Assembly: GCA_017427945.1 (NCBI GenBank)
Contig: JAFRRT010000017.1
Span: 39,879 to 103,878, forward strand
Origin: Muribaculaceae bacterium
GTDB lineage: Bacteria; Bacteroidota; Bacteroidia; Bacteroidales; Muribaculaceae
Length of the DNA: 64,000 bases
Direction: 5' to 3'
Shown here piece by piece: positions 30,166-58,389 of this stretch; position 1 is the first letter of the stretch; every line of letters starts with the position of its first letter. A program made the position numbers and the translations under genes. Under the pieces are notes generated by a model. That model was not told the origin of the DNA, made no database searches, and was given only the letters and a program-made list of their open reading frames with translations.

Positions 30166-31644
30166 ATGAAAAGATTGTTTTTATCATTTATTGCGACATT
30201 GTTTGCCGTTATGGCAGTCAATGCCGAATCATTTAGTGGCAACATCGTCATCACCCGCAATGGGCAATCCTACAACCAGCCTGTTACAGTGACGGTGACC
30301 AAAGACAACAAAGGACTGAATACCTTCGTGCTCAACATGGCCATGTTCGGCAGCATCACGATGTATGACGTGCCCTCGACCACGACGGGTGACCTTACGG
30401 TTTACAGCGCCGAAAAAGATGTTGACACTTTCCTGGGAACAATGCGCACAACACTGTTTGCCCGCACCATCAACGGAATGATGGCAGCCGACGTGGCCAT
30501 TCCCGCCCAGAATACCACAATGTGGTTCAATACCGTTGATGACCACTTCCAGATGCCCAACAGCGACATGGAGGCTTGGACCTCCGACAACGGCGAGCCC
30601 GACCGCTGGCACGGCTTCAAGACCGCAGGCGGCTCGTTCGCATCATATTCAGCTGGCATGGTCAAGCTCGAAAAGAGCAACGACATCCACAGCGGCTCCA
30701 CTGGCTCGCATAGTGCCGTAATGACCGCCGGTTCCATCTTTAGTATTGTTGCCAACGGCACCATGACCAATGGTCAGCTCATGGCTGGTTCTATGAGCGC
30801 TACCAGCACCTTGAACCACGCCGAGATGGACAAAAGCAAGGGCACCGACGATTTCTATATGCCCCTGTATGCCAAGCCCGACAAGTTCAACGTGTGGCTG
30901 AAATATACCCAGGGCACTGCCAATGCCAACAACAAGGCTAGTGTCAGTGTGAAGACCTTTGACGGCACCTATTATCAGGAGCCCGTTGACAAGACCTACA
31001 CCAACCTGTCAGGCAGCATCGTGGGCGGATCGATCGCAGCATGTGACTGGACACATTTCACATTTGACTTCGACTACGACAGCTATGCAGCCAACAATGC
31101 CGCAACCGAGGCAATCTTTGTCACCTTCTCGACCAACGGCAATCCGGGCCAAGGTAGCGGTGGTGACGCCCTGTATGTTGACGACATGGAACTGGTTTAC
31201 CTGGGCAACATGACCGACCTGCGCTACCAGGGTGCCACTATCGCTGGTTGGAATCCCGCTGTCACTGAATACAGCATGGAATTCAACAGTGAGCCTAACC
31301 TTGATGACTTCACCGCCACCATTGAGGGCGCCAGCGCCGTGCTCACCAAGTCGATGGAGCAGAATGCCGATGGCAGCTACCGCATCGCCATTTGCGTCGT
31401 TTCAGGCGACTTGCAGACTGCTACCGCCTACATCATCAACGTGACGGTTCCCAATGTTAAACGTGGTGACGTGAATGGTGACGGCAACGTTACTATCGCC
31501 GACGTGACCGCACTTATCGATTACCTGCTGACTGGTAATGCCAGCGCCATCAACCTTGCCAATGCAGATGTTAACAATGATGAAGGCATCAGCATTGCTG
31601 ACGTGACCGCACTCATCGACATGTTACTGACAGGTGCAGTTTAA
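30166..31644 (+). CDS. Calycin-like/PCMD protein with C-terminal dockerin pair
   Basis: A 492-residue secreted protein. Signal peptide (1-20); residues ~21-125 are a calycin-like (lipocalin-type) barrel; residues ~130-350 are PCMD-like (SDMEAWTSDNGEPDRWHGF, ALYVDDMELVY); residues ~355-425 form a small beta domain; residues ~430-492 hold two dockerin-type repeats (GDVNGDGNVTIADVTALID and DVNNDEGISIADVTALID). Ca2+ ligands of the loops are intact. Ligand unknown. It shares its module order with other surface carbohydrate- or lipid-binding proteins of Bacteroidales. The following calycin gene starts 36 nt later. Confidence 0.78.
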   Translation: MKRLFLSFIATLFAVMAVNAESFSGNIVITRNGQSYNQPVTVTVTKDNKGLNTFVLNMAMFGSITMYDVPSTTTGDLTVYSAEKDVDTFLGTMRTTLFARTINGMMAADVAIPAQNTTMWFNTVDDHFQMPNSDMEAWTSDNGEPDRWHGFKTAGGSFASYSAGMVKLEKSNDIHSGSTGSHSAVMTAGSIFSIVANGTMTNGQLMAGSMSATSTLNHAEMDKSKGTDDFYMPLYAKPDKFNVWLKYTQGTANANNKASVSVKTFDGTYYQEPVDKTYTNLSGSIVGGSIAACDWTHFTFDFDYDSYAANNAATEAIFVTFSTNGNPGQGSGGDALYVDDMELVYLGNMTDLRYQGATIAGWNPAVTEYSMEFNSEPNLDDFTATIEGASAVLTKSMEQNADGSYRIAICVVSGDLQTATAYIINVTVPNVKRGDVNGDGNVTIADVTALIDYLLTGNASAINLANADVNNDEGISIADVTALIDMLLTGAV

Positions 31645-31680
31645 ATAAAGACTTATCAACCCAATAATTGAATTAAGAAT

Positions 31681-32229
31681 ATGAAAAAGATAATTGCAAT
31701 GCTTGCAGCCGTGAGCTGCTCTTTGGCACTGAGTGCTACTTCCTATATGTGTCACCTTAAGGTGGTCATCAATGACGTTGCCACCGAGCAAGACCAAGTC
31801 CAGGTTGATGTCACCAAAGAGAACGGTGCTTATAACCTGAGCCTGAAGAACTTCTGCCTTGTGGCCGACGGCGTTACCCTGCCCGTGGGCAACATCTCTG
31901 TAGAAGGCGTTGAAGGCGTTAACGAGTACGGTTACACCACCATCACTTTCAACGCTCCCATCAACATCACTGCTGGTGATGATCCCAACTATGGAGAAGG
32001 CGACTGGACAGGTCCCCTGTTGGGTGAAGTACCCATCGACCTGACTGCCCGCTTCATTGGAACAGCCTTGGATGCCAACATCGACATTGACATGGTAGCA
32101 ATGCTGGGACAGGTCATCAAAGTCTCCATCTTTGGTGTTGCTCCCGTCTTGAAGGGAGACGTCAACAATGACAACGAGGTCAATATCGCTGACGTGAATG
32201 CCGTCATCGATGTCATCTTGGGCAACTAA
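31681..32229 (+). CDS. Calycin-like protein with a single dockerin repeat
   Basis: A 182-residue secreted protein: signal peptide (1-20), a calycin-like barrel (about 22-150) and one dockerin-type repeat (GDVNNDNEVNIADVNAVID, about 159-177). It looks like a short paralogue of the upstream protein's ends without the PCMD middle. Last gene of the operon, closed by the hairpin at 32269-32297. Confidence 0.75.
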   Translation: MKKIIAMLAAVSCSLALSATSYMCHLKVVINDVATEQDQVQVDVTKENGAYNLSLKNFCLVADGVTLPVGNISVEGVEGVNEYGYTTITFNAPINITAGDDPNYGEGDWTGPLLGEVPIDLTARFIGTALDANIDIDMVAMLGQVIKVSIFGVAPVLKGDVNNDNEVNIADVNAVIDVILGN

Positions 32230-32268
32230 GTCGTTTTAACGGCTCTTTGAGCAGACAAAATAAAGACT

Positions 32269-32297
32269 GCGGGCGTGCTCTCGAAAAGCACGCCCGC
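32269..32297. terminator. Terminator hairpin between convergent operons
   Basis: Perfect 11-bp GC-rich stem (GCGGGCGTGCT with AGCACGCCCGC), loop CTCGAAA. It serves the calycin operon and perhaps the convergent C10 gene. T-runs are weak on both sides. Confidence 0.65.
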
Positions 32298-32330
32298 GGT
32301 CATTTATTGCGGTTTACTGTCGTACGATGA

Positions 32331-35300
32331 TCAGTTACCCAGAAGTTTGTCGATGAGCGCCGTCACATCGGCGATGCTCACATTGCCATCATCACTCACA
32401 TCGGCACAAATCACGCACGCGCCTTCATTAGTACCCAGCAGGTAATCGATGAGTGACGTCACGTCGGCAATGCTCACCTTGCCATCGTGGTTCACGTCGC
32501 CCACCTCAAAGTCATGGGCTTGCTCCTCGAGCAGAGTCACTTGCTCAATGTTGCTCTGAGCGTGGCTTCCGTCGATGTAATTGGCAACAACATAGTATTC
32601 GTAGGTTTCGCCTGCGGTAAGACCCTCAACCACATAGTGCTTGTCGGTGATTCCGGTGATGATACGATAGTTCTCGTCACCAGTCTCGCTCACAGCCTTA
32701 ACGAAGCCGCCGCTGTAGATATCCACGCTATACAGATAGTAGCGCTGACGGCTGCCACTGCTGGTGATGGTCACATACTGACCGGCAGCAGCTTCCGACA
32801 TCTCGAGCGTAAGCGTATATTCCTGAACCTCATTGGTCAGCACTATGGTCTGACTTGCACTGCCACAAGAAACTGTGAGCGTAGTGACATCGGTGCCGTA
32901 GTTCTTGGCTTTCAGCACCACAGTGGCAGCGCAACCGCTGTTGGTCATGTCCAGTTCAGGTGAAACCAGCGTGCCGCCGTTGCTCGCGTTACCGAACTTG
33001 AGGCCACCGCCGCCAGCCTGATAAATGTAGGAACCCGTCCAACCTGCATTGTCGCAGTAGTCATCAAGCGAGTTGTCGATACGCGTCGTGCCGTCGTTCT
33101 CGGCCGTCACTCCACCAAAGGTCTCCCTTATTAACAGTTCGAGGCCTCCGATGGTTCCCACTTCATTAACATATAAAGTGTAATCCTGAACGTAGGCCGC
33201 ATTGGTCTCGTCGGTCCAGTCAGCGCGGAAGGAACTGGTAGTAATATACTCCTCATCAGCAGGCAACATCACAAGTTCGCCCAGCGGCATAGTTGCGATG
33301 CCGTTCAGCGAAACGGTGACATCCTCAGCCCCTTCGCTCGAGATAGTAACTGTCGCAGCATGGCTGCCGGCGGCAGTCGGAGCGTAAGTAACTGTCACGG
33401 TCGCACCTTCTTCGGCATCAGCAATGCTGATGGTGGTGGGATTGACTGTGAACATGCCGCTCTCATCAGTAAGCGTGATGGTCACGTTACTCGTCAGGTC
33501 GGCACCCAGGATGTCAAAGGTCTCAGTTTCCGTCTCGCCCACGTTGGCAGTCATTGCGAAGCCATTGGGTTCAACAATCAGCTCAGGATCGGGAACCACA
33601 GGAGCGTCCTTCAGAGTCACCTGCTCGGTGTTGCTCTGGACAGAGCTTCCGTCGTTGTAGTTGGCAATAACGTAGTACTCATAGGTGGCGCCAGCGGTCA
33701 AACCCTCAACAACATAATACTTGTCGGTGATACCGGTAATCATGCGCTGGGTAGCGTCGCCGCTCTCACTCACTGACTTAACGAATGCACCATTATAGAC
33801 CTTCACGTTGTACAGGTAGTAGCGCTGACGGCTTCCTGTGCTTGAGATGGTCACATACTGGTCAGCAGCCGCAGCCACGTTTTCAAGCACAACGGTATAC
33901 ATTACTGCTTCATTTTGTAGGGTGACAGTCTGGCTGACATCACCACAGGAAACGTTGAGCGTGGTCACATCGGTGCCATAGCTCTTGGCGTTGAATTCAA
34001 CGGTGATCGCGTTTCCGCAGTCGGAGATGTCGAGGGCGGGTGTAGTCAGCGTGCCACCGTTAGTCGAGTTGCCGAACTTCAGGCCACCGCCTCCTGCCTG
34101 ATAAACATAAGAGCCCGTCCAACCTGCATTGTCACAGTAGTCGTCAAGCGAGTTGTCGATACGCGTCGTGCCGTCATTCTCAGCAGTCACGCCACCGAAC
34201 GTCTCATTAATCAGCAAATCACCAGGCATAGGTGACTGGCCAGAGAGGTTCACATACAAGGTGTAATCCCGAACGTAGGAAGAATTGGTCTCGTCGGTCC
34301 AGTCGGCGCGGAACGAACTGGTGGTGACATATTGCTCATTAGCGGGCAACATCACAAGATTACCCAGCGGCATTGTGGCAGTGCCGTTGATAGTCACGGT
34401 TACAGCCTCGGCACCCTCGCTGGCGATAGTTACGATAGCATTGTGGTTGTCTGCCGTTGTAGGTGCATAGGTCACAGTGACGGTTGCACCATTCTCGGCA
34501 TTGGTCTTGCTGATAGTCGTAGGATTGATGGAGTAAACACCATTGGCATCGGTCAGCGTCAAGGTCACATTGCCAGTGAGATCAGCGCCTAAGATGTCGA
34601 AGGTTGCCGTTGAGGTCTGTCCCACGTTAGCTGTCATCGTCAATGTTTCAGGATCAACGACCAATTCAGGAGTGGGAGCCACACTACCCTCAAGGGTAAC
34701 TGTCTTGACATTAGATTCCTTGGTGGTACCATCGGAATAGTTAGCCACCACATAGAATTTGTAGCTGCCACCAGCCGTCAAGTTGCTGACGGTGTAGTTC
34801 TTAGCGGTAATACCCGTGATAACACGGCTGTTGGCATCACCGGTTTCGCTGGCATTGAGCTTAGCGCTGTTGCCACCTGACGTTATCTCAACGTTGTACA
34901 GGTACCAGCGCTTCTTGCTGCCACTGCTTGCAATTGTCACCTTTTGGCCAGCAGCTGCGGTCACACCACTCAGGACTACAGTATAGTCGGTTGCTGTGCT
35001 GGAGAGCGTAATAGTCTGGCTGGCATTGCCGCACGAGATTGTCAGAACGGTTGCATCGGTGTTGTAGGTTTTGGAATTAATTTTCACGGTGATGGTGCCA
35101 CCAGTAGAACTCAAGTCAAGAGCGGGAGTTGTCACGCTGCCGCCATTGCTCGAGTTACCCAACTTGAGGCCACCGCCACCAGCCTGATAGACGTATGATC
35201 CCGTCCAACCGGCATTGTCACAGTAATTATCAAGAGTGTTATCGATGCGGGCCGTGCCGTCGTTGGTAACGGTAACACCGCCGAAAGTCTCGGTCAACAA

Positions 35301-36575
35301 CGTCTGGCTATTGGGGTCATAGGCCTGCACATAGAGGGTGTAGTCATTCACATTCTCGCTGGGTGTCTGATCGGTCCAAGTAGCCTTGAACGAAGTGGTA
35401 CCCACATTGCTGGCATCGGCCATCACGGGAGCATAAGTCTCAATCACAGAGCCCTCAGGGAAGACCTGATAGAGCATCTGCTGATAGGACGAGAAAGTAT
35501 AACCGTCAACGCTGAAGGCATCAAGAGCAAAATAGTCGTCACCATCGCCGCTCCAGCCCCAGTTGATGTGATACTTGCTGCCATTGTAACCGTCCACCAC
35601 AAAGGCATGACCGCCTGCCCAGTAGTCATTACCGGCATACAAAATAGGCCTACCCGCTGCCAGATCTTCCTGCATCATGGCATTCCATGCACTTGCGCTA
35701 TAGTTATCACGGTCGATGCAAGTGGCACCCGAATTGTAACCAAACAACTTCATGCCGTCGAGCTGATCCTCACAATAGGCACCGCTACCACCATTATTGG
35801 CGTTGTCATAGTCCATCTTGCAGGACTGACCACAGTAGCGCATCAGCGTAGCAACAGCACTCTTTGCGGCTGACGAAGATGAGTTACTGTAAGTATCGGT
35901 CATGCTGTTCCAGTCAAGAGTCGTAGCAGGAAGCGCTGACAACGAGATGTGACGTGTACTCGTGGTGTAAGCTGCAAGAGCCGGAGCCTGGGCTGGATAT
36001 TTCCAGTAATACATCACCTGTGCCATCGCAGTAGCCACACAACCTGTCAGGCAGGTTGAGCCACCATAGGTCGGACACTGGTTCCAATAGGGAGACTCCT
36101 GATCCCACTTGCAGGTGAGCAGCGGAGAAACCGTGAGCCTCAATTTACCAGCATTGAGTTCAGTGGGGGTAACCACATCCAGTTCAGGATGCTGCTGCAA
36201 ATATTCAATCTGTTTCCTGTACTGGTCAATCCACCAACGCATATTGCTGGGAATGATATCCATGTCAAGCGCATGGTCTCCATAGGCAAGAATCTCCTCG
36301 GCACGGTCTTCACCTGAAACGATGACAAACGAACTGCCGTCTTTGGAGTTAAACACATAGAACACATTCACCTGTGCATCTACAGATGATTTCTCTGTAT
36401 ATGCCAGTTCAAGTGTCGAAGATGACGCCATGAACCTGGATCCAGGTTGTGCGTTCAAGAATTGGACCGCTTTGTTCAAAGCGACCGTTGCGTCCACATT
36501 GGATGCCGTCATGTTGACCGCTGCAAGGGCAAACATCACAAGCATCAATGATTTCACGTAATTCATGATTTTCAT
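32331..36575 (-). CDS. C10 cysteine protease (streptopain-like) with repeated modules and dockerin
   Basis: A 1414-residue secreted protein. Signal peptide (1-24), propeptide (~25-150), peptidase C10 domain (~150-365) with catalytic C179 in TGCVATAMAQ, H323 in GGHAFVVDGY and the NWGW loop at 338-341. Then three near-identical jelly-roll modules (~425-600, ~778-960, ~1143-1330; each with YCDNAGWTGSY and QAGGGGLK), separated by Ig-like choice-of-anchor-D and fibronectin-III domains. Two dockerin repeats end it (~1360-1414). C10 enzymes degrade host and food proteins after self-processing. The start may be the fourth codon instead. Same strand as the other two proteases. Confidence 0.88.
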   Translation of the reverse strand: MKIMNYVKSLMLVMFALAAVNMTASNVDATVALNKAVQFLNAQPGSRFMASSSTLELAYTEKSSVDAQVNVFYVFNSKDGSSFVIVSGEDRAEEILAYGDHALDMDIIPSNMRWWIDQYRKQIEYLQQHPELDVVTPTELNAGKLRLTVSPLLTCKWDQESPYWNQCPTYGGSTCLTGCVATAMAQVMYYWKYPAQAPALAAYTTSTRHISLSALPATTLDWNSMTDTYSNSSSSAAKSAVATLMRYCGQSCKMDYDNANNGGSGAYCEDQLDGMKLFGYNSGATCIDRDNYSASAWNAMMQEDLAAGRPILYAGNDYWAGGHAFVVDGYNGSKYHINWGWSGDGDDYFALDAFSVDGYTFSSYQQMLYQVFPEGSVIETYAPVMADASNVGTTSFKATWTDQTPSENVNDYTLYVQAYDPNSQTLLTETFGGVTVTNDGTARIDNTLDNYCDNAGWTGSYVYQAGGGGLKLGNSSNGGSVTTPALDLSSTGGTITVKINSKTYNTDATVLTISCGNASQTITLSSTATDYTVVLSGVTAAAGQKVTIASSGSKKRWYLYNVEITSGGNSAKLNASETGDANSRVITGITAKNYTVSNLTAGGSYKFYVVANYSDGTTKESNVKTVTLEGSVAPTPELVVDPETLTMTANVGQTSTATFDILGADLTGNVTLTLTDANGVYSINPTTISKTNAENGATVTVTYAPTTADNHNAIVTIASEGAEAVTVTINGTATMPLGNLVMLPANEQYVTTSSFRADWTDETNSSYVRDYTLYVNLSGQSPMPGDLLINETFGGVTAENDGTTRIDNSLDDYCDNAGWTGSYVYQAGGGGLKFGNSTNGGTLTTPALDISDCGNAITVEFNAKSYGTDVTTLNVSCGDVSQTVTLQNEAVMYTVVLENVAAAADQYVTISSTGSRQRYYLYNVKVYNGAFVKSVSESGDATQRMITGITDKYYVVEGLTAGATYEYYVIANYNDGSSVQSNTEQVTLKDAPVVPDPELIVEPNGFAMTANVGETETETFDILGADLTSNVTITLTDESGMFTVNPTTISIADAEEGATVTVTYAPTAAGSHAATVTISSEGAEDVTVSLNGIATMPLGELVMLPADEEYITTSSFRADWTDETNAAYVQDYTLYVNEVGTIGGLELLIRETFGGVTAENDGTTRIDNSLDDYCDNAGWTGSYIYQAGGGGLKFGNASNGGTLVSPELDMTNSGCAATVVLKAKNYGTDVTTLTVSCGSASQTIVLTNEVQEYTLTLEMSEAAAGQYVTITSSGSRQRYYLYSVDIYSGGFVKAVSETGDENYRIITGITDKHYVVEGLTAGETYEYYVVANYIDGSHAQSNIEQVTLLEEQAHDFEVGDVNHDGKVSIADVTSLIDYLLGTNEGACVICADVSDDGNVSIADVTALIDKLLGN
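32520..35310 (-). repeat. Three tandem ~1.08-kb coding repeats in the C10 protease gene
   Basis: The stretch encoding TRIDNSLDDYCDNAGWTGSY plus the glycine-rich turn recurs near 33000-33130, 34075-34190 and 35160-35265, about 1.08 kb apart. Copies 1 and 2 from the 3' end are closest in DNA. This length of near-identity is prone to recombination and to assembly collapse. Confidence 0.8.
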
Positions 36576-36772
36576 TGTGAATGATAATTAAAATGTTGAT
36601 TATGAAACGAATTAAATATACGTCTTGGAAGTTTATAATGGTTGAAGGCTCCTATGCAGCACAGCAGCCACAAAAGAGCCCTCAAAGTTAACAAAATCGT
36701 TATTTATCAGCAACTATTTTAGACTAATCGTTGGATTAAATCAATCAATAGTATTGCGCACCCCAACATGTC

Positions 36773-39358
36773 TCATGGATTGAGGATGATGTCGATGATT
36801 GCATTCACATCGGCAATGTTCACTTCGCCATCACCATTCACGTCACAGGCAGCGTTTCCGCCTGCCAAGAGGATGTAATCAATGACGGAGTTGATGTCGG
36901 CAATATTCACCTCGTGGTCTTTATTCACGTCACCAATGATGCCATCGACATCGACGCCCACCATATTCTTGAACCATGGCCAGATTCCACTGTTCTTATA
37001 TTCATGATAAGACGCCTCAGGCACACGCAACATGGCCTTGTTATAAATGGTACGGGTGAAGCAGTCAGGATTGGGAGTCTCAGGAGGCACAAGAGAACGG
37101 CACGTCACCACAGTAATGTTGGGACAACTATGGAACACTTCTATTCCCAAAGTGCTGACCGAAGAGCCCAAGGTCAAATTCTTCAGGCTTTCGCACTTTT
37201 TGAAAGCCTGATACCCGAGATCGGTAACTGCATCAGGAATAACCAAACGAGTCAAAGAAGTGCAACCTGAGAAGGTCTTCTCGGCAATGGCCTGCAGCGA
37301 GTTGGACAATGTGACAGTCCGCAAGGCGGTGCAACCCTGGAAGGCACTGACACCCATCGAAGTGACAGTGTTAGGAATGATTACATTCTGTAACGAGGAG
37401 CAGCCGTTGAACACATTCTTGCCCAACGAAACGACACCCTCAGGAATTGACACACTGGTCAGAGCCGTACAATTCGTGAACAAACCGTCGGGCAAGGCTG
37501 TTACACTGGCAGGAATAGAAACACTTGTCAGTGCACTGCAGCCGCTAAAGGCCTGCTTTTCAAGCGTTGTCATGCCCGCAGGCAAGGTCAGCGACGTGAT
37601 GCCCTCACAACTGGCGAATGCCGATTCCTCCACAGCGGTAACGCCGTTCTGTATCGTAACAGACTCCAAACCATGACATTGAATGAAAGCGAAGTGTTTT
37701 ACCTTATTGACCGTTGAGGGAACCTCCAAGTTAACGACCTCCTGGCCATCGATGCTCAGATGATGGGCATTGCACAACGGATTGGCATACTGGTCAACGA
37801 AATCGATATTGAGCCATGCTTCCAGACTGGCTGCCCCTACATGAGTCATACCCTGGCACTCAAAGAATGCCTGCTTACCTATCCTGGTTACCGAAGCGGG
37901 CAAATCAATGCCTGTCAAGTTCACACAATTGACAAAAGCCTGATTTCCCAAACTGATGATGCCGTCAGGCAGCGTTACCGATGTCAGCCCGATGCAGTTC
38001 CTGAAAGCCCTTTCACCGATGGTGGTCACAGTTGCAGGAATCTGTATCGATGTGAGTCCCGTGCAGTCTCTGAAGGCATCTTCGCCAATGCCGATAACAG
38101 GCAAGGTCTCTCCGTCATAGGTTACCTCGGTTGGAATGACAACATTGCCGTTATAGCTATCAAATCGCTTGTCTCGATAAGATACAATAACATTGTTGCA
38201 CTCCTCGTCATACACATAGTAAATACCGTCTTTTTCAAAGTCATGGCCACCCTCAGGCTCAATTTCCTGACGCGGACAGATGTGGTGCAATATCTCCTGA
38301 GAATCCAGGAACGAGTAACCCCTCACGACAAGGCCGTTAAGCCTGAAATAGCCGTTTCCGGTGCCTGCCCAGCCCCAGTTGAGATGGAACAAGCCGTCAT
38401 AATAGCCATCAACAACGAAGGCGTGACCGCCTGCCATGGGGTCAGTTCCCGAATAGAGCACAGGGCGGCCTGCCGTCAAATCCTCAAGCACCAGGGCTTC
38501 CCATTCCTCGAGGGAATAATTGCTACGCTGCAACATTGAAGCATGGGTGCCATAGCCGAATGATGACATACCCTGGAACTGCTGATAAACGTAAGCGCCA
38601 CTGCCATTGGGGCTATAGTCCATTCTGCTGGACTGACCGCAATAGCGCATGAGCTTGGCGACAGCGTCGGCCTGCTGGCTGGTGTAATCGCTAATATAGG
38701 AGTCAATCATGTTGTCCCAGTCCAGATGAGTGGAAGGCAAGGACGACACATTGATTCTGAGGCTTCGTGTCGTGTAACCTGACAACGCGGGCAATTGATC
38801 GGGATATTTCCAGTAGTACATCACTTGAGCCATCGCCGTGGCGATACAACCCGTCACGCTGCGCTCTCCTTGATAAAGCGGGCACTGGTTGTAGTAAGGC
38901 TCACTCTGGCTCCAAAGGCACGATAGCAATGGCATGACCGTGGTCTCAGAGCGCGTTTGACGAATGACCTGAGCTGTAGGCGTGGCATACAGATATTCCA
39001 TCTGCTTCTTAAAGTCATTAAGCAGCCACTGCATACCACAAGGAATGTCGTTCATGTCAATGGGCCCCTCGCCATAACCAATGACGTCGCCCACACGGTC
39101 ATCACCGGCAATAATGACGAAGGCCTTGTTGTCGCTGGCATTGAACACATAGTAATCGGCCATGTCGGCCTTGACCGATGAGATCTCGGCATGCGACAGA
39201 CGCATGGCAGAGTGACTTGCGTTCAACTTGGTCCCCGAAGGCCCCGAGAGGAACTGTTGCGCCATTCTCTGTGCAGTCGTCACATCAATCGGCGCGGCAC
39301 TCGCCCCTGTCGATATCAAGGCGAGGGTTACAATAATAAAATACTTTTTCATTATCAA
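36773..39358 (-). CDS. C10 cysteine protease with BspA-type LRR and dockerin
   Basis: An 861-residue secreted protein. Signal peptide (1-22), propeptide, C10 domain with catalytic C171 in TGCIATAMAQ, H312 in GGHAFVVDGY and NWGW at 327-330. Residues ~375-790 are LRR_5/BspA repeats (GIGEDAFRDCTGLTSIQIP and similar 23-residue units). Two dockerin repeats end it (~804-861). LRR_5 repeats often bind host matrix or other cells, so this may be a protease targeted by adhesion. The third codon (MKKYF) is an equally likely start. It shares domain order with the 1414-residue protease next to it. Confidence 0.9.
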   Translation of the reverse strand: MIMKKYFIIVTLALISTGASAAPIDVTTAQRMAQQFLSGPSGTKLNASHSAMRLSHAEISSVKADMADYYVFNASDNKAFVIIAGDDRVGDVIGYGEGPIDMNDIPCGMQWLLNDFKKQMEYLYATPTAQVIRQTRSETTVMPLLSCLWSQSEPYYNQCPLYQGERSVTGCIATAMAQVMYYWKYPDQLPALSGYTTRSLRINVSSLPSTHLDWDNMIDSYISDYTSQQADAVAKLMRYCGQSSRMDYSPNGSGAYVYQQFQGMSSFGYGTHASMLQRSNYSLEEWEALVLEDLTAGRPVLYSGTDPMAGGHAFVVDGYYDGLFHLNWGWAGTGNGYFRLNGLVVRGYSFLDSQEILHHICPRQEIEPEGGHDFEKDGIYYVYDEECNNVIVSYRDKRFDSYNGNVVIPTEVTYDGETLPVIGIGEDAFRDCTGLTSIQIPATVTTIGERAFRNCIGLTSVTLPDGIISLGNQAFVNCVNLTGIDLPASVTRIGKQAFFECQGMTHVGAASLEAWLNIDFVDQYANPLCNAHHLSIDGQEVVNLEVPSTVNKVKHFAFIQCHGLESVTIQNGVTAVEESAFASCEGITSLTLPAGMTTLEKQAFSGCSALTSVSIPASVTALPDGLFTNCTALTSVSIPEGVVSLGKNVFNGCSSLQNVIIPNTVTSMGVSAFQGCTALRTVTLSNSLQAIAEKTFSGCTSLTRLVIPDAVTDLGYQAFKKCESLKNLTLGSSVSTLGIEVFHSCPNITVVTCRSLVPPETPNPDCFTRTIYNKAMLRVPEASYHEYKNSGIWPWFKNMVGVDVDGIIGDVNKDHEVNIADINSVIDYILLAGGNAACDVNGDGEVNIADVNAIIDIILNP

Positions 39359-57432: not shown

Positions 57433-57617
57433 TTTCTTATTGTTTTAGTTGTTTGTAATTGCTTTTGTTAACGGCTTAGAGCTTATCGCTAGAAGCCCGT
57501 TTTCATGCATTAGATGCACCAACACATCAAAAAAGTTGCACAAAGTTGAAAAAAAATTGTGGCAATGAATGAAATTCACCTCAAAAAGCTATGCCTTTCA
57601 AAGCATTTCGAGTGGAT
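57433..57617. other. Gap left of the transposon-like element
   Basis: No gene. It holds the upstream region of the 56557-57432 gene, where on the minus strand CAACTTTG near 57536-57543 is one base off a -7 box, and small A/T-rich palindromes. Nothing else is supported. Confidence 0.4.
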
Positions 57618-57736
57618 TGCATCGAAGATGCATGACGGGTCGAAGGCCCGGCTTTATTGAGAAATACCATGCAAGTGGGTTGAAAACCCACGCAGCTTGG
57701 TGCAAAACCAGCTACATTGCATGTGCCTCGAAGAGG
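57618..57736 (+). repeat. Left hairpin arm (H0-H3) of the tnpA element
   Basis: Four hairpins read on the plus strand: H0 57618-57632, H1 57636-57650, H2 57675-57691, H3 57726-57736. All four have the loop GAA. Stems are 6, 6 (one wobble), 7 and 4 bp. Spacers of 3, 24 and 34 nt separate them. Conserved spacer words are GAGAAA, ACCATGCAA, GCAGCTTGGTG and ATGTG. ACCA before H2 can pair with TGGT after it, forming an outer stem. The arm ends 4 nt before the tnpA stop codon. Confidence 0.85.
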
Positions 57737-57740
57737 AACT

Positions 57741-58184
57741 TCAAGTCAATCTATTATCATTCCACTCTATTCCCGACATCTCAACCATAGCCTTATACTC
57801 GTCCTCGAATGTTTTCGCCTTATGGTGTTCACGCTGATTGATGATATAAGCGGTGATTACGTCTCTATCACGGCAACTGCATGAGAATGCGCCATATTCC
57901 TTACCCCAGCCACTGAATTGAGGGAAATAAGCTTGTTGCTTGGCCCACTTACTGCTACCTTGCTTAATATCACGCACAAGGTCACTTAATGCGACAGTAG
58001 GCGCTAACTCAATGAGCATATGAACGTGGTTGCCAATACCATTAATGCGATACAGTTTGCAACCTCGGCTCTTGACAATCGACCAAATGTAACGATACAT
58101 ATGTTCGCTCGTCTCGTTAGGAATGGTCATTTGACGACGGTAAGTGTTGATAACAACATGATACATTGAACTGACAGCACTCAT
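57741..58184 (-). CDS. tnpA: IS200/IS605-type Y1 transposase (TnpA)
   Basis: A 147-residue HUH nuclease. Metal-binding HVH at H53-V-H55, the SSKW helix (~77-80), a WGKEYGAFS segment (93-101; WQEGYGAFS in many relatives) and the catalytic Y113 with Q117 in the AYIINQREHH helix. All active residues look intact. Such enzymes act on single-stranded DNA hairpins, cutting with a 5'-phosphotyrosine link. It has a clear promoter (58219-58250) and no TnpB. The stop codon lies within the conserved arm sequence (AACTTCA). It may be an immobile domesticated enzyme that acts on the arm hairpins or on dispersed copies. Met7 is an alternative start. Confidence 0.92.
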   Translation of the reverse strand: MSAVSSMYHVVINTYRRQMTIPNETSEHMYRYIWSIVKSRGCKLYRINGIGNHVHMLIELAPTVALSDLVRDIKQGSSKWAKQQAYFPQFSGWGKEYGAFSCSCRDRDVITAYIINQREHHKAKTFEDEYKAMVEMSGIEWNDNRLT

Positions 58185-58218
58185 TTTTTAAATAAACCTA
58201 ATGTTTTATATTGAATTG

Positions 58219-58250
58219 CAAAGATAACGCAAAATACTCTAAACCACAAA
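58219..58250 (-). promoter_or_regulatory. Consensus promoter of tnpA
   Basis: Minus strand: TTTG at 58250-58247, 20-nt spacer, TATCTTTG at 58226-58219. Both elements match. It lies between the right arm and the gene, so transcription starts inside the element and leaves the right arm out of the mRNA, while the left arm would be in its 3' end. Confidence 0.8.
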
Positions 58251-58269
58251 TGTCTTGCGAGGTGAAGTT

Positions 58270-58389
58270 CGTCTTCGACGCACATTCCTTGTTTGAGTTC
58301 TTTACACCAAGCTGCGTCCATCTTCGATGGACTTGCATGGTGTTTCTCATTGAAATCGGGTCATCGACCCGATTGGTCACTTCGTGACC
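58270..58389 (-). repeat. Right hairpin arm (H3'-H0') of the tnpA element
   Basis: Read on the minus strand, the order outward-in is H0' 58389-58375, H1' 58374-58354, H2' 58332-58316, H3' 58280-58270. Loops are GAA, GAT, GAA, GAA. Stems are 6, 9, 7 and 4 bp. The H1'-H2' spacer is 24 nt when H1' is counted as its six inner pairs, as on the left, with 19 of 24 positions identical; H2'-H3' is 35 nt. The stems of H0', H2' and H3' differ from the left arm yet pair perfectly. Confidence 0.85.

Follow-up and report, generated by a model that had tools for sequence, protein, structure and literature searches.

The window analysed here, a 64,000-nt stretch of a Muribaculaceae genome, carries on its minus strand a gene for a Y1/HUH transposase, tnpA, set between two inverted arms of four hairpins each. 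Its immediate neighbours encode a GHL10 protein, a sigma factor and a protein with a sub-cut-off match to DUF6249; none of these is a TnpB, in keeping with the first-pass annotation, which had noted the lack of one. The features are as follows, with hairpins numbered H0 to H3 and loops in brackets.

58375..58389, minus strand: H0 of the 5' arm, GGTCAC[GAA]GTGACC, from the sequence
58354..58374, minus strand: H1 of the 5' arm, AATCGGGTC[GAT]GACCCGATT, from the sequence
58305..58342, minus strand: long core stem of the 5' arm, CACCATGC..GCTTGGTG, which encloses H2, from sequence and covariation
58316..58332, minus strand: H2 of the 5' arm, GTCCATC[GAA]GATGGAC, from the sequence
58267..58283, minus strand: H3 of the 5' arm, GTG-CGTC[GAA]GACG-AAC, from sequence and covariation
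58219..58250, minus strand: candidate tnpA promoter, TTTG (58247-58250), 20 nt, TATCTTTG (58219-58226), placed by eye between the 5' arm and the gene
57741..58184, minus strand: tnpA, Y1/HUH transposase of 147 aa, from a Y1_Tnp match, an IS200 model and alignment to solved TnpA
57723..57739, plus strand: H3 of the 3' arm, GTG-CCTC[GAA]GAGG-AAC, from sequence and covariation
57665..57702, plus strand: long core stem of the 3' arm, which encloses H2, from sequence and covariation
57675..57691, plus strand: H2 of the 3' arm, GTGGGTT[GAA]AACCCAC, from the sequence
57636..57650, plus strand: H1 of the 3' arm, CGGGTC[GAA]GGCCCG, from the sequence and relatives' arms
57618..57632, plus strand: H0 of the 3' arm, TGCATC[GAA]GATGCA, from the sequence
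57525..57558, plus strand: left target copy, both-sided in 11/15 occupied relatives, coordinates by eye

The protein matches Y1_Tnp (PF01797) at 9.5e-22 and scores 61.8 bits with the IS200 model, whose cut-off is 55; the NCBIfam REP-transposase model gives it 24.4 bits, far under the cut-off of 80. Its HUH motif reads NHVH and its tyrosine motif YIINQREHH, the HUH and Y-x3-Q regions align to the solved TnpA structures 2f4f and 2xm3, and the Y1 HUH transposase motifs of IS200/IS605 enzymes are present. Judged by sequence, it carries the signature of TnpAY1 subclass 1.2, Y-x3-Q-x2-HH, which is found in 99 of the 100 relatives that have a stop codon, as is the HUH motif (also 99/100). The first-pass annotation had cited RAYT enzymes beside IS200/IS605-type TnpA; the protein does not have the class-2 RAYT signature, Y-x3-NP being absent and Y-x3-Q standing in its place. 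Median dN/dS of tnpA is 0.04 (37/91 pairs unsaturated at synonymous sites, 54/91 saturated), and the gene is under strong purifying selection. A third tnpA of the same genome, on contig C21, is 44% identical, with weak flanking similarity.

All eight hairpins sit where the first-pass annotation had placed them. The two window arms are inverted repeats of each other with an identity of ~75%, comprising 57636-57706 with 58301-58371 (pair I1, 71 nt, 77% complementary) and 57714-57743 with 58263-58292 (pair I2, 83% complementary). A longer stem that contains a T.T mismatch, [CT]ACCA-T-GC ... GC-T-TGGTG (57665-57702 and 58305-58342), ends in H2, and GNA triloops cap seven of the eight hairpins, the loop of the right H1 being GAT. 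Folded as single-stranded DNA, the right arm (minus strand) reaches its minimum in the four-hairpin design (z -7.0, 0/200 shuffles as good); the left arm (plus strand) reaches z -4.3, again with 0/200 shuffles, and its minimum re-pairs part of the spacer. Fold energy alone cannot pick the strand, because the complements of the right and left arms come close to them (z -6.0 and -4.6). With the structure written from the right arm, 11/32 stem pairs differ between the window arms and all 11 stay standard pairs, nine of them with both letters changed; the stems thus differ yet remain paired, as originally described, with an unpaired change at none of the differing pairs. The arm is also, as claimed, larger than a classical REP of 20-40 nt, being ~125 nt long with H0 to H3 and a bulged core stem, the outer stem around H2, and arm pairs measure ~307 bp.

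Compensating changes keep the arms as shapes across relatives. In 54 subfamily-A arms (alignment A1), scored on a structure that we specified, 96.2% of 1715 stem cells pair against 81.2% when shuffled, both sides have changed at 21/32 pairs, and the covariation score of 0.379 compares with 0.122 for shuffled and 0.04-0.08 for slid alignments, shuffling being a control that does not remove relatedness and sliding one that keeps it. Columns 70/108, the outer pair, read C-G in 31 arms and G-C in 22. The rows of A1 were picked by the core pattern CCATGC..GCTTGG and the end pattern A[AC]TT, so that six outer-stem positions per side are invariant by construction, and the pattern leaves free the outermost two pairs, H0, H1, H2 and all loops, with H3 bounded by its end only; the core is present in 61/64 arms of the set that preceded A1. 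Near-identical duplicates, L042, L047, L086, L049_5 and the short L089_5 were left out, as were L043_3 and L088_5, in which the core is missing or cut off. At the window locus, 28 arms from 14 species (13 with both neighbours seen, L034 with the left neighbour only) pair in 870/887 cells against a shuffle maximum of 807. Subfamilies B1 and B2 have the same arm plan in different letters; in B1, 98.4% of 1276 cells pair and double changes number 183 where shuffles reach at most 66, figures that lean towards pairing since the structure was predicted from the B1 alignment itself. Covariation is strong with the 54 sequences of A1 aligned, which bears out the proposal that selection on shape has kept the arms.

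Relatives comprised 41 loci from named genomes, some very distant, together with genomes of the genus, 79/101 of which match the window protein at E 1e-15 and from which 60 stretches were taken; most genomes used are draft assemblies. Among 90 members with at least 200 nt on each side, which include same-locus orthologues and are not independent, the inverted-repeat flank score exceeds 37 in 86 and 53 in 82, clear arms being missing by this scoring in eight. The control genes of the window score at most 37 in 44/46 cases and at most 53 in 45/46; the two highest (53 and 128) align a coding repeat common to neighbouring genes. Such a repeat is shared by the facing coding ends of 31451-32518 and 32115-36896 in the window, a false positive in flank-repeat scans, and looks like a dockerin end. 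Arms adjoin proteins down to 25% identity (L062), and all five tnpA groups examined are flanked by them, whatever their outer ends. Three relatives are on plasmids: the two from Cytophagales have inverted flanks (Persicobacter, 66 vs 31; Bernardetia, 96 vs 48), and the one from Skermanella is without them (28 vs 45), its protein ending in Y-x3-Q-x2 without HH and adjoining a gene annotated as a transposase. The phage collection yielded one distant Y1 relative, MT835494.1 41871-42290 (28.6%, without the HH signature), which is without inverted arms (26 vs a shuffle maximum of 49).

Some loci are more elaborate. A tnpA-less arm pair (L048, 1513-1934) abuts and slightly overlaps the 5' arm of a tnpA-bearing element, and in L044 long arrays of a unit like CTACTGTGGTTCGAAGACG, with a GAA spacing that resembles the arm loops, lie upstream of tnpA and beyond the 3' arm. 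In L131, L136 and L099 arm-like sequence occurs within long direct duplications beside tnpA (alignment scores 154-236).

The GNA loop is found in 193/216 hairpins of A1, in both arms. In the 5' arm it is the coding strand that carries the GNA loops, in the 3' arm the opposite one, so that a single transcript could not present the GNA form of both. The segment 58219..58250 we take, by the Bacteroidota consensus, to be a promoter. Position relative to the arm was tested in 31 close members, and in 27 of them TANNTTTG lies between H3 and the start codon; a -7 box of the Bacteroidota type was sought within 110 nt of the start and occurs in 72/97 members against 3.7 expected from shuffled sequence, accompanied by an upstream box in 32/97. 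A search against Rfam gave no match at E 1. With GNA loops on opposite strands and a promoter between the 5' arm and the gene, DNA is likely the folded molecule; the earlier wording, "structured DNA (or RNA)", holds as to structure, and these two observations favour DNA over RNA. GNA and GNNA loops closed by at least two G-C pairs form extraordinarily stable DNA mini-hairpins (PMC4686876), and TnpAREP enzymes use loops, bulges and foot motifs to recognise one particular strand of a REP (PMC8266576).

The history of the locus could be followed through its neighbours. With the left neighbour as probe, 59/101 genus genomes match, and the analysis covers the 30 matches listed; the right neighbour is also seen at 27 of these, and the three loci without it were set aside. 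Among the matches listed, 13/27 loci hold tnpA and two arms (intergenic distance 1022-1149 nt), two hold one arm (G071 and G082) and 12 are empty (164-210 nt). A 15-nt core, AAAAGTTGCACAAAG, allowing up to three mismatches, occurs once in 12/12 empty sites and on both sides in 11/15 occupied sites against 0/12 empty ones, G066 having a third copy; the window and three other occupied sites retain the left core copy only. The best-kept target copies measure 50 nt (G015), 49 (G066), ~46 (G067) and 39 (G099), the others being shorter or diverged, and left and right copies are near-identical (0.89-1.0) in five of 11 species and 0.54-0.72 in six. Recent re-insertion in each species was rejected, left and right copies being no closer than copies between species (p 0.24). 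The tnpA distances follow those of the neighbour genes (Mantel r 0.58, 0/2000 permutations, 13 species), and filled and empty species are intermixed on the neighbour tree. In 12 relatives the site of the unit is empty; the unit itself is now inherited for the most part. Because tnpA distances track the neighbour genes, the reading we prefer is that the unit inserted long ago, with a long duplication, and has since been mostly inherited and repeatedly lost, the loss perhaps occurring by slippage between the target repeats. A conserved CATGCATTAGAYG stretch, not part of the element, precedes the left neighbour gene both at window positions 57504-57518 and in the 12 empty sites.

Across the wider set, 22/87 members have direct repeats beyond the arms that score above 30, the highest value among the controls, which include homologous loci. 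Five of these are at the window locus (L035, L036, L038, L030 and L039), and two lie near the outer arm ends elsewhere (67 nt in L149, 56 nt in L128), with no empty site for comparison. In L110 one repeat copy is 492 nt from the start, and the other 14 appear by eye to be tandem arrays or reiterated arm or hairpin sequence. Further window-locus repeats fall under the control maximum (38 nt in L037, 34 in L032, 26 in L027 and 18 in L028).

The search proposed by the first-pass annotation, for arms in relatives and for arms without tnpA, gives such copies in the genus and not in the window genome, where the covariance model finds only four arms, those of the two closest tnpA genes, and one candidate beyond them at E 3.4. 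Among the best candidates of each genome (at most 32), arms match the model at E 1e-8 in 83/101 genus genomes. The tnpA-less arms often come as inverted pairs with a spacing of 29-33 nt, or of 82 nt in one G016 family, and inverted pairs are the layout of REPINs (PMC8049555). Counted among the same best candidates, the median is 11 arms in the 28 genomes that have a tnpA of at least 67% identity and two in the other 73 (p 9e-8, relatedness uncorrected). At least eight arms are nevertheless held by 16 of the 73 genomes without a close tnpA, and six of the 16 (G071, G061, G065, G006, G082 and G034) have no window-protein match at E 1e-15 and 10-25 arms among their best 32 or fewer candidates.

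Where ends of tnpA-less copies can be defined they are of two DDE kinds. The IS4-type end, ATTRGTGTCCGG, is shared with a 1,321-bp element of the window genome (L283 1501-2821, contig C35), an IS4-family IS with ends ATTAGTGTCCCG, a 9-bp repeat ATATAGGAT and a 387-aa transposase that scores 250 bits with the IS4 model. Thirteen IS4-type end pairs at 12 loci were tested, and five have perfect 9-13 bp repeats above every control pairing: L193, L288 and L306, which have arms, L299, which has no arm match, and the IS itself. IS4-type ends with no arm match occur in other genomes at L286, L293, L296, L299 and L304, some of them with other palindromes. The ISAon1-type tip is GGG[AT]CACCTGCAAAA, and a 33-aa coding end beside it in G035 matches ISAon1 at 2.6e-12 (46.5 bits, the whole-protein cut-off being 250). 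Repeats of 8-9 bp, one with a mismatch, flank five of 16 tested elements of this type, not all of which have full arms; one (L043) bears tnpA. Another locus, L262 376-2128, has two ISAon1-type tips whose outer flanks are inverted repeats, not direct ones, and between them a gene whose protein reads by eye like a formylglycine-generating enzyme. Neither the IS4-type nor the ISAon1-type tip was seen by eye at the window element or at its 12 same-locus relatives. DDE elements thus spread some arm pairs, at least partly, as cargo. Scattered copies had been considered as proof of Y1-driven movement; because several lie in DDE-type ends, they no longer prove Y1 activity and the argument was dropped.

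We regard the unit as probably a REPtron-like element, in which a Y1/HUH transposase with the subclass 1.2 signature lies between inverted four-hairpin recognition arms. It resembles the REPtrons of class-2 RAYTs in having a Y1 HUH gene flanked by inverted folded repeats, in its tnpA-less inverted pairs, in inheritance at one locus and in higher copy numbers where the gene is present. It differs from them in that the protein is class 1, with Y-x3-Q rather than Y-x3-NP, and in that no conserved unpaired GT[AG]G foot was seen by eye in A1. With TnpAY1 subclass 1.2 it shares Y-x3-Q-x2-HH, a length of ~148 aa, few copies per genome and occurrence in Bacteroidota. However, inverted arms flank 82/90 members here, in a subclass that the table of Quentin 2018 lists as "no" under REP and that is described there as generally without typical terminal IS200 structures (PMC6006769); the "no REP" entry records an absence and does not define the subclass by a motif. 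The TIRYTs or TIRtrons likewise hold a RAYT-like gene between long inverted repeats, some self-complementary and some repeated in the genome (PMC3733652), yet the 26 TIRYTs counted by Quentin belong to subclasses 2.1, 2.2 and 2.5, with none in 1.2 (PMC6006769), and no GGGGWSAS motif was noticed in the present unit. From IS200/IS605 elements, with which it has a Y1 HUH enzyme and subterminal hairpins in common, the unit differs in several ways: its arms are inverted, whereas the hairpin ends of IS200/IS605 are on the same strand; most of its occupied sites have a second target copy, where IS200/IS605 insert without duplication; and it has no TnpB neighbour and is kept at one locus. Some arm pairs lie within ends like those of IS4/ISAon1 MITEs, with 8-9 bp repeats, but neither end is seen at the window element. 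Searches of the open-licence literature in PMC turned up no description of such arms for subclass 1.2, so a REP-like partner for this subclass appears new, TIR-flanked relatives being already known (PMC3733652).

On sequence grounds, then, the arms would be the substrate of TnpA. When a strand becomes single, for example as lagging-strand template, the arm could fold into its GNA-capped hairpins. TnpA would bind the core stem, with its constant ACCATGC/GCTTGGT and changeable H2, on the GNA strand only, and would cut and join near the arm, as TnpAREP does with REPs. The inverted layout would put one usable arm on each strand, and this could account for target nicks that lie far apart and for duplications that are long. 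It is conceivable, although we would not bet on it, that insertion proceeds by two separate single-strand transfers, one per arm, on opposite strands with nicks tens of nucleotides apart. If so, two-transfer insertion would leave long duplications of variable length (39-50 nt at this locus, 67 nt in L149 and 56 nt in L128), a third outcome beside the IS200-type one, without duplication, and the DDE type, with short fixed duplication.

Other explanations share parts of this evidence. Arms and tnpA might be passengers of IS4/ISAon1 ends, spread by the transposases of those elements, with the hairpins serving miniature elements and not the Y1 enzyme. The perfect 9-13 bp repeats at five IS4-type end pairs, the 8-9 bp repeats at 5/16 ISAon1-type elements with the ISAon1 match of the G035 coding end, and the abundance of arms in some genomes that have no tnpA match all agree with this. 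We nevertheless think it unlikely, as no such tip is seen at the window element and its 12 relatives, the best-kept target copies run to 39-50 nt, the five tnpA groups are flanked by arms regardless of outer ends, and tnpA is under purifying selection. A neutral, diverged inverted duplication, which the ~75% identity of the window arms might suggest, is scarcely credible: it is contradicted by covariation both in the 54 A1 arms and in the same-locus arms, and by retention of the arms over saturated synonymous divergence.

The arms could alternatively act in cis, as an operator or a site of chromosome structure, with TnpA as its own regulator. The 5' arm does lie directly upstream of the tnpA promoter and the element is fixed at one place in 13 species, but stem letters change with pairing kept, which a duplex operator does not need, the 3' arm is inverted, and tnpA-free arm copies exist elsewhere, so that we give this little chance. 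If the arms were instead leader and trailer structures in the tnpA mRNA, this would account for structure with compensating changes, and leader control has been reported for the ISPpu9 transposase (PMC8450116). With the promoter between the 5' arm and the gene, GNA loops on the non-coding strand in the 3' arm and no Rfam match at E 1, an RNA element is very improbable.

With the REPtron-like reading, a transposase subclass published as lacking terminal structures gains a likely DNA partner, together with a covariance model that finds it. Bacteroidota would have a REP/REPIN-like system whose arm is several times the size of a REP, many of the relatives being rumen genomes. Because orthologous sites in 27 species are occupied, single-armed or empty, the gain and loss of the unit and the duplication of its target can be tested directly. 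The GNA-capped stems, for their part, are a clear example of how selection acts on the shape of single-stranded DNA.
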